Shown here piece after piece: positions 5,882 to 11,058 of a stretch of DNA of 34,245 nt. Below the pieces are notes generated by a model. It made no database searches and was not told the origin of the DNA. It saw only the letters and a list, made by a program, of their open reading frames with translations. Where the stretch lies: contig NZ_SMKL01000067.1 in assembly GCF_004348545.1 (NCBI RefSeq), forward strand, positions 1-34,245. The letters run 5' to 3'. The stretch comes from Jiangella ureilytica (GTDB lineage: Bacteria > Actinomycetota > Actinomycetes > Jiangellales > Jiangellaceae). The position numbers and the translations under genes are program-made. The first letter of the stretch is position 1. The number at the start of each line of letters is the position of its first letter.

Positions 5882-6754
5882 TCAGCGGGGACTGATCACC
5901 GCGGCCAGCATGCCAGGCCCCACATGAGCGCCGATGACCGCCCCGACCTCGGTCACCACCACCGACCCGGCCGACGGAAGCCGCTCGGCCAGGCGGGTGG
6001 CGAGCTCGTCGGCGCGGCGGGCGTTGTCGAGATGATGCACCGCCACATCCACACGGCCGCCACCGCTCGACGCGGACGCATCGAGCGCCCGCTCGACCGC
6101 CAGGTCTTCCAGCCGCGACCGTGCCCGCGCCGACGTGCGGACCTTCTCGAGCAGGTCGACCCAGCCGTCGCTCAGATGGAGCAGCGGCTTGATCGCCAGC
6201 GCCGTCCCCACCATGGCCGATGCCGCGCCCACCCGCCCGCCACGCCGCAGGTACTCCAGCGTGTCCACGTAGAAGAACGCCGACGACCGCACGGCCCGGT
6301 CGAGCGCCAGCGCCGCCACCTCGTCCGCCGTCAGCCCGCGCGAAGCCGCGTCGGCGGCCACCAGGACCGCGAACCCGAGCCCCATGCCGAGCGACCGGGA
6401 GTCGACCACGTGCACCGGGACCGGGGCGTCGCGCGCCGCCAGCCGGGCCGCGTCCGCCGTCCCCGAGAGGCTGCCGGACAGGTGCACCGACACGACGGCG
6501 GTACACCCGGACGCGGCGCAGGACTCATAGACGTCCAGGAACGTCCGCGGGCTCGGCCGCGACGTCGTCACCGGCACGTGCGCCCGCAGCGCCGCGGTGA
6601 CCTCACGCGGCCCGAACGACGAGCCCGGCCCCTCCGACACCGCGACACCGTCGACGACCACCTGCAGCGGCACGACCCGGAGGCCCTGCGACTCCACGTC
6701 GCCGGCCGCCAGGTGTGCCGTCGAGTCGGTGACGACCGCGACCCGCCCCGTCAA
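5882..6754 (-). CDS. DegV-family protein (fatty-acid-binding, FakB-like)
   Basis: 290 residues, normal for the family. DegV proteins bind a single long-chain fatty acid; FakB members present it to a kinase (FakA) for acyl-phosphate formation. Seen here: VAVVTDSTAHL at the N-terminus, the VTTSRPSP loop (about 62-69), SVHLSGSLSGTADAARLA (about 89-106), VDSRSLGMGLGF (about 118-128) and the FFYVDTLEYLRRGGRVG motif. All are hallmarks of the DegV fold and its lipid headgroup site. It starts six bases after the leuS stop and so probably shares its transcript and the leucine-responsive leader. No fakA partner lies in the window. Lipid specificity cannot be read from sequence. Confidence 0.9.
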   Translation of the reverse strand: MTGRVAVVTDSTAHLAAGDVESQGLRVVPLQVVVDGVAVSEGPGSSFGPREVTAALRAHVPVTTSRPSPRTFLDVYESCAASGCTAVVSVHLSGSLSGTADAARLAARDAPVPVHVVDSRSLGMGLGFAVLVAADAASRGLTADEVAALALDRAVRSSAFFYVDTLEYLRRGGRVGAASAMVGTALAIKPLLHLSDGWVDLLEKVRTSARARSRLEDLAVERALDASASSGGGRVDVAVHHLDNARRADELATRLAERLPSAGSVVVTEVGAVIGAHVGPGMLAAVISPR

Positions 6755-6760
6755 GGGACG

Positions 6761-9625
<2,865 letters not shown>

Positions 9626-9685
9626 CGGAATTCGTCCCTCATCTGTGGATGTCAGGCCCGGAACACCAGGCCCCCAACAAGAAGA

Positions 9686-9707
9686 GACCCCTCACGCAGG
9701 AGGGGTC
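9686..9707 (-). terminator. Intrinsic terminator in the leuS leader (attenuator)
   Basis: A perfect 8-bp stem, GACCCCTC (minus-strand 9707-9700) with GAGGGGTC (9693-9686), has a six-base loop and is followed on the minus strand by TCTTCTTGTT. This is a textbook Rho-independent terminator 61 bases before the leuS start codon, downstream of the leader peptide. Its position makes sense only as a conditional stop inside the leuS transcript. Confidence 0.75.
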
Positions 9708-9708
9708 A

Positions 9709-9759
9709 GCCGCGCCGACGTGACGCCGCTGGAGGGCGTCCGCTACCAGTCAGCGCGGC
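9709..9759 (-). promoter_or_regulatory. Alternative leader stems between leader peptide and terminator
   Basis: GCCGCGC (minus-strand 9759-9753, at the end of the leader peptide) is complementary to GCGCGGC (9715-9709), enclosing an inner hairpin GACGCC/GGCGTC (9740-9735 with 9727-9722). The outer stem touches the leader-peptide codons and ends just before the terminator arm. A ribosome stalled at the Leu codons would therefore block it and change downstream folding. The exact antiterminator pairing is not obvious by eye. Confidence 0.5.
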
Positions 9760-9803
9760 CCGATAAGGAGCAGCAGGCCTCGCACAAGGTCAGGATAGCG
9801 CAC
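9750..9803 (-). CDS. leuS leader peptide with four consecutive Leu codons
   Basis: A 17-codon ORF: GTG start at 9803, peptide MRYPDLVRGLLLLIGPR, stop TGA at 9752-9750. AGGAG lies four bases before the GTG. It contains CTG CTG CTC CTT in a row (plus one earlier CTT), far above chance for so short an ORF, and is followed by the terminator at 9686-9707. Low charged tRNA-Leu should stall the ribosome on this run. Classical attenuators of this kind have been predicted for leuS in some Streptomyces. A shorter start at the in-frame GTG 9785 is possible. Confidence 0.7.
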   Translation of the reverse strand: MRYPDLVRGLLLLIGPR

Positions 9804-9846: not shown

Positions 9847-11058
9847 ATGGACGTCCCGGGCTGGGTATGGGTGCCGACGGTGGCGGGGATCGTCGCGCTG
9901 CTGGTGTTCGACTACGTGTTCCACGTGCGCCGGGCGCACGTGCCGACGCTGCGCGAGGCGGCGGTGTGGTCGGCGCTGTACGTCGGCATCGCCGTGGCGT
10001 TCGGCGTGGGTGTGCTGGTCGTCGGCGGCACCACCATGGGCGCGGAGTACTTCGCCGGCTACATCACCGAGAAGGCGCTGTCGGTCGACAACCTCTTCGT
10101 GTTCCTGGTCATCCTGCACAGCTTCCGCGTGCCCCGCGAGCACCAGCAGAAGGCGCTGCTGTTCGGCATCACGTTCTCGCTGATCGCGCGGACGGGCCTG
10201 ATCTTCGTCGGGTCGGCGCTGATCAACACGTTCGCCTGGGTGTTCTACCTGTTCGGGCTGATCCTGCTGATCACCGCGGGCAACACGCTCAAGCCCCGCG
10301 GCGGCGAACCCGACGAGGGCGAGAACATCGCCGTCCGCACGGCTCGGCGGCTCTTCCACACCAGCGAGTCCTACGACGGCGGCCGGCTGTACACCGAGCG
10401 CGACGGCCGCCGGGCGATGACCCCGATGCTGCTCGTCATGGTGGCGCTGGCCGGCACCGACGTGCTGTTCGCGCTGGACTCGATCCCGGCGATCTTCGGC
10501 CTCACCCAGAACGTGTACCTGGTCTTCACCGCCGTCGCGTTCTCGCTGCTCGGACTGCGCCAGCTGTACTTCCTCATCGACGGCCTGCTCGACCGGCTGA
10601 TCTACCTGGCGTACGGGCTGGCCGCGATCCTGGCCTTCATCGGCGTGCGGCTCATCCTGCACGCGCTGCACGAGAACAACCTGCCGTTCGTCAACAACGG
10701 CCAGCCCGTCGAGGTGGCCGAGATCACTACCGGGCTGTCGCTGACGGTGATCGTGTCGGTCCTCGTCGTGACGGTGCTCGCGTCGCTGTTCAGCCACACC
10801 GGCCGGGCGCAGACGGCGATCGCCAACGCCCGCCGGCACGCGACGGCCTATCTCGACTCCGAGTACACCGCCGACCCCGCCGAGCGGGAGCGGATCTTCC
10901 AGTGCCTCGTGGACGAGAAGGTCGAGATCGTGAAGCTCGGACCGAAGTACAAGCAGATGGCCCGCGACGCCGACGGCCTGCTCGACCTGGTGGAGCAGGC
11001 GCACGCGCGCCACGACGCCGCGGTCGCCCGGGGTGAGGCCCCCGCCGCCCGCAGCTGA
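9847..11058 (+). CDS. TerC-family integral membrane protein (Alx-like)
   Basis: 403 residues with about eight or nine membrane spans. TerC/Alx proteins are linked to tellurite resistance, and recent work on the family points to manganese export; the exact ion is not readable here. The two family signatures with conserved acidic residues in membrane helices are present: EKALSVDNLFVF (Asp81) and ALAGTDVLFALDSIPAIFG (Asp205, Asp211). Between them is a charged cytoplasmic loop (about 150-190). The C-terminal 80 or so residues form a charged soluble tail (YTADPAERERIFQ...). The gene diverges from leuS and shares its 221-bp upstream region, where I see no yybP-ykoY riboswitch. The ATG at 9847 is supported by AAGGTGG four bases upstream. 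Confidence 0.92.
   Translation: MDVPGWVWVPTVAGIVALLVFDYVFHVRRAHVPTLREAAVWSALYVGIAVAFGVGVLVVGGTTMGAEYFAGYITEKALSVDNLFVFLVILHSFRVPREHQQKALLFGITFSLIARTGLIFVGSALINTFAWVFYLFGLILLITAGNTLKPRGGEPDEGENIAVRTARRLFHTSESYDGGRLYTERDGRRAMTPMLLVMVALAGTDVLFALDSIPAIFGLTQNVYLVFTAVAFSLLGLRQLYFLIDGLLDRLIYLAYGLAAILAFIGVRLILHALHENNLPFVNNGQPVEVAEITTGLSLTVIVSVLVVTVLASLFSHTGRAQTAIANARRHATAYLDSEYTADPAERERIFQCLVDEKVEIVKLGPKYKQMARDADGLLDLVEQAHARHDAAVARGEAPAARS

Follow-up and report, generated by a model that had tools for sequence, protein, structure and literature searches.

The region upstream of leuS in Jiangella ureilytica raises the question whether this leucyl-tRNA synthetase gene is controlled by a leader-peptide attenuator and, if so, by one of which design. 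In textbook attenuation, two hairpins compete for one strand. The stretch of DNA analyzed here, designated the window (34,245 nt; GCF_004348545.1, contig NZ_SMKL01000067.1, positions 1 to 34,245), carries on its minus strand a leader of ~100 nt, which is located between leuS and a divergently oriented terC-like gene (Table 1). A first-pass annotation made from the sequence alone had drawn this leader as an attenuator, in which an alternative stem serves as classical antiterminator. A leucine leader and a terminator between the likely promoter and leuS are indeed present, but the architecture drawn there did not stand. Instead, we regard it as fairly likely that leuS and degV are preceded by a ribosome-mediated attenuator with a leaderless peptide, in which a helix flush with the terminator (helix A) blocks closure of the latter.

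Table 1. Features of the leuS leader and neighboring genes in the window. Positions are those of the window; the leader features lie on the minus strand and therefore run from high to low numbers.
Feature	Position	Strand	Remarks
TerC/Alx-family membrane protein gene	9847-11058	+	divergent from leuS
-10 box TATCCT, predicted leuS promoter	9792..9797	-	6 nt before the leader start codon; from sequence
Leader ORF GTG..TGA, VRGLLLLIGPR, 11 codons plus stop, predicted leaderless	9750..9785	-	kept in 22/22 same-family loci
Control codons CTG CTG CTC CTT (four Leu)	9765..9776	-	from sequence
Helix A 5' arm GGCCGCGCTGAC	9749..9760	-	includes leader stop codon; outermost pair G-U
Inner hairpin 5' arm GACGCC	9735..9740	-	in helix A loop; minimum-energy fold
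Inner hairpin 3' arm GGCGTC	9722..9727	-	minimum-energy fold
Helix A 3' arm GTCGGCGCGGCT	9708..9719	-	abuts terminator, 0 nt gap
Intrinsic terminator hairpin GACCCCTC-CTGCGT-GAGGGGTC	9686..9707	-	8 bp; covarying; termination predicted
T-rich tail TCTTCTTGTT	9676..9685	-	from sequence
leuS, leucyl-tRNA synthetase (954 aa)	6761..9625	-	NCBIfam TIGR00396, 889.5 bits
degV, DegV-family protein (290 aa)	5882..6754	-	TIGR00762; 6 bp behind leuS

Read from 5' to 3', the leader consists of a -10 box, 6 nt, a short ORF, helix A enclosing a small hairpin, the 8-bp terminator and a T-rich tail. The assignment of leuS and degV and their spacing, as given in the first-pass annotation, were confirmed by NCBIfam. 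In this study, "same family" refers to 22 genomes of the Jiangellaceae including the source genome. A degV match is found at most 1.5 kb behind leuS in 22/22 same-family loci, and in 20 of these the distance is no more than 70 nt. The two genes are presumably co-transcribed, judging from their arrangement, and as degV follows leuS this closely in the family, read-through would probably serve both. The additional proposal that leucine charging is thereby linked to a fatty-acid-binding protein has gene order as its sole basis, and a physiological fatty-acid link is not supported. In several loci of the same genus, the start of the same TerC/Alx-family gene seems by eye to lie opposite the leuS promoter.

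Leaders of this type were collected using a finder, which calls for neighboring Leu codons in a short ORF, preceded by a TAnnnT box and followed by a G+C-rich hairpin with a T/C tail. It scored 74 of 101 leuS upstream regions, i.e. 22/22 from the same family and 52/79 other actinobacterial loci, the latter taken from the best 80 of 584 candidate loci and thus nearest rather than random (L032 was dropped, as it resides on the same contig as L013). Nothing was scored on the reverse strand (0/101) or in 20 rounds of dinucleotide shuffles. Loss of the Leu codons or of the terminator in close relatives had been named beforehand as evidence against attenuation; both are kept in 22/22 same-family loci. 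For alignment A1, 24 near-identical leaders were dropped, reducing the 74 sequences to 50, and covariance model R1 was built from A1. The Streptomyces leaders and the window fall into this one covarying alignment and this one covariance model and accordingly share a common RNA structure. The window matches R1 with 89 bits (E 3.6e-17), a score that includes the benefit of its own sequence in the training set. At E 0.01, R1 has matches in 126 of the 246 class genomes searched. Sampling 296 genomes across the phylum yielded 16 with a match at E 1e-4, 14 of them from the class. The statement that leuS attenuators occur in some Streptomyces understated their spread, even though not all of the matching leaders precede leuS.

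The leader frame itself had to be redefined. The GTG at 9803 proposed previously does open a 17-codon frame (MRYPDLVRGLLLLIGPR, GTG read as M), and GGAG is present four bases upstream. As a leader this frame fails: a start codon in frame 18 nt ahead of the conserved one is kept in 11/22 same-family loci and in 17/74 leaders overall, the first six codons represent the -10 promoter box plus flanks, and two loci (L019, L020) have an in-frame stop there, namely the TAA of their -10 box. The conserved frame starts at 9785 (GTG CGA GGC CTG CTG CTC CTT ATC GGG CCG CGC TGA, 9785-9750) and has a counterpart of 10 or 11 codons in 22/22 same-family loci. The GGAG thereby loses its role as ribosome site, all the more as no Shine-Dalgarno-like sequence precedes the conserved leader start in 71/74 leaders. 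The run of four Leu codons is present as first described.

The distance between -10 box and leader start is 6 nt in 51/74, 7 nt in 22/74 and 8 nt in 1/74 leaders, with TAnnnT demanded and 4-9 nt permitted by the finder. No sigma-70 promoter with both hexamers was detected by scanning, and a -35 box is not recognizable in the window. The position of the -10 box, 6 or 7 nt from the start in 73/74 leaders, together with the lack of a Shine-Dalgarno-like sequence in 71/74, points to a leaderless ORF, which is probably transcribed from the GTG at 9785 or a position next to it. According to the accessible part of the report on S. lividans, the leuS leader of this species (leuL2, MRAVRLLLSEPR) is leaderless as judged from RNA-seq, and the -10 box is separated from the start site by 6.3 nt on average (PMC8079986). 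The window shares with leuL2-type leaders the Leu run and the position upstream of leuS; that its leader is leaderless, too, is predicted from the -10 box 6 nt upstream and the lack of a Shine-Dalgarno-like sequence. In two loci in which the leader was not found (L033, L034; lineages such as Actinotalea and Cellulomonas), leuS seems by eye to begin a few bases past a -10-like box, and leuS itself may be leaderless in such lineages.

What structure lies between this ORF and leuS? The alternative stem drawn in the first-pass annotation (9753-9759 with 9709-9715) does pair, but as part of the longer helix A, in which 12 bp are formed between 9760-9749 and 9719-9708 and the 11-bp core covaries over 50 sequences. 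A hairpin with changed bases recurs at the place of the inner hairpin in most same-family folds, as inspected by eye. The 8-bp terminator with its T-rich tail is present as annotated and has the most pairs of five terminator-like sites in 4 kb, where shuffled sequences yield 0.7. In the 50-sequence alignment, 95.2% of the cells in helix A and terminator are paired and 8/19 pairs changed on both sides, counts that lean on relatedness, since changes are shared within clades and one of the 50 sequences served as template for the structure. The covariation score was 0.229 as compared to 0.140 in shuffles (0/500 as high) and at most 0.091 when partner columns were slid. One pair (columns 67-121) changes from C-G to U-A in 10/50 leaders, which by eye converts an Arg codon to Cys in eight of these ten, while the stop codon lies upstream in the other two. 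Since the change alters a residue of the peptide, it is the pairing that is kept and not the residue.

Several other elements were considered. Neither the T-box covariance model nor any other Rfam family attained its gathering score when the window and eight loci, among them the window's own, were searched, and a T-box or other Rfam element at the leuS leader was accordingly rejected. A 5' pause hairpin of the window (GCG-A-GGCC/GGCC-G-CGC) was rejected as a general feature, as it is inconsistent by eye in Micromonospora and Streptomyces leaders. The codons CTC CTT could pair with the 3' arm of the terminator, but this possibility was likewise discarded, as the pairing looks weak by eye in Streptomyces.

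Control codons and helix A usually stand at a fixed distance. In 45/47 scored leaders, the helix A core (GCCG or GCTG) begins 8 nt after the first base of the codon that closes the Leu run. The exceptions are L087 (6 nt) and L051, in which the Leu run is far off and a single Leu codon is found at 8 nt. Three leaders left out of this scoring because the motif was unmatched (L043, L044, L092) each show 8 nt by eye. When scored automatically, long-type leuS leaders have 8 nt in 39/60 and 7 nt in 19/60 cases, and 8 nt was obtained for 28/42 leaders of the shorter LeuS type, 11/22 cimA and 3/7 ilvB leaders; this scoring comprised one leuS leader without a control-codon run, and some cimA leaders received 4-5 nt from counting Val after the Ile codons. 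In the window the distance is 7 nt, if the G-U pair is counted. Codon-to-helix spacing is thus usually, although not always, 8 nt. In all 11 leaders whose peptides comprise at most eight codons as read (G030 among them is cut by the contig end), the helix core is located at +8, and in ten of these the UAG stop codon overlaps the first base of the core only. As the short-peptide leaders keep the core at +8, it is the RNA that is conserved and not the tail of the peptide.

This spacing would place helix A under control of the translating ribosome. Assuming the ribosome edge to lie 13 nt from the first A-site base, the full helix A can form in the window when the ribosome resides on Leu codon 4 or 5. 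With the ribosome at codon 6 the two outermost core pairs are lost, and at codon 7 pair probabilities are 0.06 or less.

The second recurring feature is the junction of helix A with the terminator. A gap of 0 nt was scored for 46/60 long-type and 25/40 short-type leuS leaders (two further short-type leaders are without a scored terminator), 21/22 cimA and 5/7 ilvB leaders; in this scoring both helices are maximally extended by script, which favors small gaps but not 0 in particular. An overlap of one to four bases between the two helices is possible in 9/129 leaders, whereas no base is shared in 120/129 or in the window. An earlier tally on the 50 aligned leuS leaders gave about 33/50 at 0 nt and is slightly off, as the automatic helix is wrong for L065 and L069 (gaps of 0 and about 3 by eye). 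In the 50 leuS leaders of alignment A1, helix A has outer spans between 26 and 67 nt. Thus, the length of the helix is free to vary while its junction to the terminator is kept tight.

A classical antiterminator should hide the 5' arm of the terminator when the ribosome stalls. For this test, the RNA between the ribosome edge and the last base ahead of the terminator 3' arm was folded, and the paired share of the 5' arm was measured. Six E. coli attenuators (trp, leu, thr, his, phe, ilv) served as controls, and a difference of more than 0.3 between starved and fed states was scored as a switch. At an edge of 13 nt, the E. coli leaders had a starved median of 0.83 (6/6 above 0.5) and a fed median of 0.03, and 5/6 switched, hisL being the control that did not. 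For the leuS leaders, the starved median was 0.04 and the fed median 0.35, and 0/50 switched. Edges of 9, 11 and 15 nt yielded 0, 0 and 2 switching leaders out of 50, respectively. Among cimA leaders 0/21 switched (one was skipped in the test), and the same was true for 0/7 ilvB leaders at edge 13. By this computed test, the ribosome-gated helix is not a strand-sharing antiterminator. The role of classical antiterminator that had been assigned to the alternative stem is hence not borne out: the stem has no base in common with the terminator and, unlike in E. coli, a stall leaves the 5' arm of the terminator unhidden. Once complete, the terminator is paired with a mean probability of 0.94 in the starved state (stall on the first Leu codon) and of 0.91 in the fed state. 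The complete terminator is paired in both states for the trp, leu and thr controls as well; therefore, only the earlier folding step discriminates.

The mechanism we propose for the window supposes, on top of the features described, translation of the leader, an exact start site, a direction of the response and a steric step. Transcription would begin with the GTG at 9785 or right beside it, and ribosomes would load straight onto the 5' end of the RNA. With ample charged leucyl-tRNA, the ribosome would clear the four Leu codons, reach the UGA and cover the 5' arm of helix A, which could then not form; the terminator would close and transcription would halt ahead of leuS. Under a shortage of charged leucyl-tRNA, the ribosome would wait on an early Leu codon with its leading edge just before helix A, and the helix would form while RNA polymerase moves on. 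The closed duplex, flush with the foot of the terminator, would block the last terminator pairs inside the RNA exit channel and thereby cause read-through. During intrinsic termination the foot of the terminator closes inside the polymerase, where a flush 5' duplex should not fit. The steric step follows from two considerations. If more synthetase is expected to be made when charged leucyl-tRNA is short, helix A must oppose the terminator, and as it does not compete for a strand, a steric effect is the likely way to do so. The main weakness of this explanation is the sign of the response. Since helix A and terminator coexist at equilibrium, folding alone predicts no antitermination. In the sequestration test, the terminator arm is even freer in the starved than in the fed state, and on folding alone the sign is open or could even be reversed. 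A literature search recognized no precedent for antitermination by an adjacent hairpin through steric hindrance, most subscription papers being outside its reach. Support for the sign comes from the ilvB1 leader of M. tuberculosis, in which exchange of the LVVI control codons for AAAA resulted in low, unresponsive reporter expression according to the accessible part of the report (PMC13236596). The authors describe mutually exclusive structures (hairpins) in the same text (PMC13236596).

Three other readings were weighed against the steric model. The leader could be a classical attenuator after all, with helix A or a longer alternative stem taking the 5' strand of the terminator by pairing. 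The leuS elements of Streptomyces were called classical, with antiterminator and terminator hairpins, in the part of the 2005 study by Seliverstov accessible to us (PMC1262725), adjacent hairpins overlapping at a GCC trinucleotide were modeled for ilvBNC of C. glutamicum (PMC11857589, in part), and the nine leaders with potentially shared bases would fit as well. Against these stand the folding data, in which no leuS leader at edge 13 hides the terminator arm more (by 0.3) upon stalling than when fed, as compared to 5/6 E. coli controls, the nearly identical outcome at the other edges and the absence of any common base in the window. We therefore rate strand competition as rather improbable. 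Still less probable appears the opposite possibility that helix A aids the terminator, by stacking or by freeing its 5' arm, in which case stalling of the ribosome would lower leuS expression. Coexistence of both helices in folding and the lower degree of mispairing of the terminator arm when helix A can form would agree with such a role, but it would cut the synthetase at leucine shortage and, at ilvB and cimA, biosynthesis when the product is short, and it conflicts with the ilvB1 codon exchange.

A switch outside secondary structure, namely a triplex or pseudoknot, a pause through ribosome-polymerase coupling or a protein, is to our mind equally unlikely. There is a case in its favor in S. 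venezuelae, where the tryptophan response of trpE was missed by a model unless triplexes were included, as stated in the accessible part of Korolev 2016 (PMC4833913), and an extra 5' hairpin folds in several of our leaders. No conserved extra element was identified, though; the features that recur are the ruler, helix A and a terminator flush with it.

How does the element compare to known systems? With the E. coli trp, leu, thr, his, phe and ilv attenuators it shares a peptide with control codons and an intrinsic terminator before the regulated genes. It differs in that the stem formed upon starvation hides the terminator 5' arm in 6/6 E. coli leaders tested, which is not so here. E. coli attenuator leaders are not leaderless. 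As judged by these traits, the window contains a control-codon ORF and an intrinsic terminator but, according to the computed folding, no strand-sharing antiterminator. In the model, the element is thus a member of a known functional kind that lacks the classical strand-sharing feature.

A close published relative is leuL2 of S. lividans (2021), which likewise combines a leaderless short Leu-run peptide with an intrinsic terminator upstream of leuS in the accessible account (PMC8079986). The peptide MRAVRLLLSEPR occurs among the Streptomyces loci examined here, which are part of the same RNA alignment as the window; the peptide of the window, VRGLLLLIGPR, differs and has four Leu codons. The part of the leuL2 account available describes a hairpin and a U stretch, and neither a flush helix nor a ruler appears in it (PMC8079986). 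The leuS attenuators predicted for S. avermitilis and S. coelicolor resemble the element in having a Leu-codon peptide and two hairpins upstream of leuS (Seliverstov 2005, PMC1262725, in part). They were called classical in that portion of the study, whereas our sequestration test on 50 leuS leaders does not support strand sharing, and they were predicted there for two Streptomyces species, whereas the matches obtained here extend across many families of the class (PMC1262725). The LEU element upstream of leuA in Actinobacteria, which includes S. lividans leuL1, is also connected to leucine metabolism and has a Leu-run peptide, but is distinguished by a pseudoknot, the lack of a typical terminator and a different gene downstream, as far as the accessible parts of both reports go (PMC1262725, PMC8079986). 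leuS is not named in the main text of a Term-seq paper on S. clavuligerus, in the accessible part of PMC4833913 or in PMC2965389.

The nearest published idea that we found to a switch controlled at the junction is the GCC competition in C. glutamicum ilvBNC, described in a report available in part (PMC11857589). There, the start site, worded with 'translation' for 'transcription', lies one base from the leader start codon, and bases of antiterminator and terminator are adjacent (PMC11857589). The hairpins of ilvBNC overlap at the GCC trinucleotide, which is the point of difference to our leaders, where usually no base is shared. A degenerate pattern of the C. glutamicum ilvL peptide matched 0/393 genomes.

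Model R1 is not restricted to leuS. Its 138 matches, 136 from the class search and two from the phylum draw, are followed by leuS in 103 cases, cimA in 22 (one assignment, G293, at 28% identity only) and ilvB in seven, and six are without a gene call. Of the latter, three are located at contig ends, one beside an apparent tRNA by eye, which is probably a false match, and two elsewhere. The leuS matches divide into 61 of the long type present in the window and 42 of the shorter LeuS type. In G017, a same-family genome, a second leuS is present, which is of the short type and has its own leader, MRAALLLSQPR (L155, G017:C30:34668-34772). This case and the matches at both types indicate that the leader accompanies both types of LeuS.

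The flush layout also precedes ilvB and cimA, the source genome included. In the same Jiangella genome, a leader with the peptide MTFCLIIT (Ile-Ile codons) and a helix directly before the terminator (L113 1501-1588; G000:C100:6716-6808) precedes a citramalate synthase gene (TIGR00977, 560.8 bits). cimA leaders elsewhere encode peptides such as MFYGLLIIGRRAG. No report of an attenuator at cimA (citramalate synthase) was recognized in a literature search whose reach did not extend to most subscription papers. The ilvB leader of the same genome (L245 1402-1431, upstream of G000:C105:21434-23230) encodes VRFGILVLH and ends with TAG, and by eye this stop codon lies inside the helix directly before the terminator.

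Tentatively, and with less assurance than for the window itself, we suggest that Actinobacteria possess a distinct class of attenuators for leuS, ilvB and cimA, characterized by a leaderless peptide, a ruler of ~8 nt, a helix at the stop codon that is flush with the terminator, and steric exclusion with no strand taken. If gating helix and terminator usually share no strand, antitermination would be determined by the position of the helix end rather than by the pairing partner. This would provide a rule for recognizing attenuators that searches based on strand competition may miss, such as the cimA leaders. Two weak matches of the model, L242 (G038:C171:34909-35020) and L241 (G177:C53:72297-72391), encode the peptides VAQHLMIISWAREPA and MRTVLLLLSGRDETSF, respectively.
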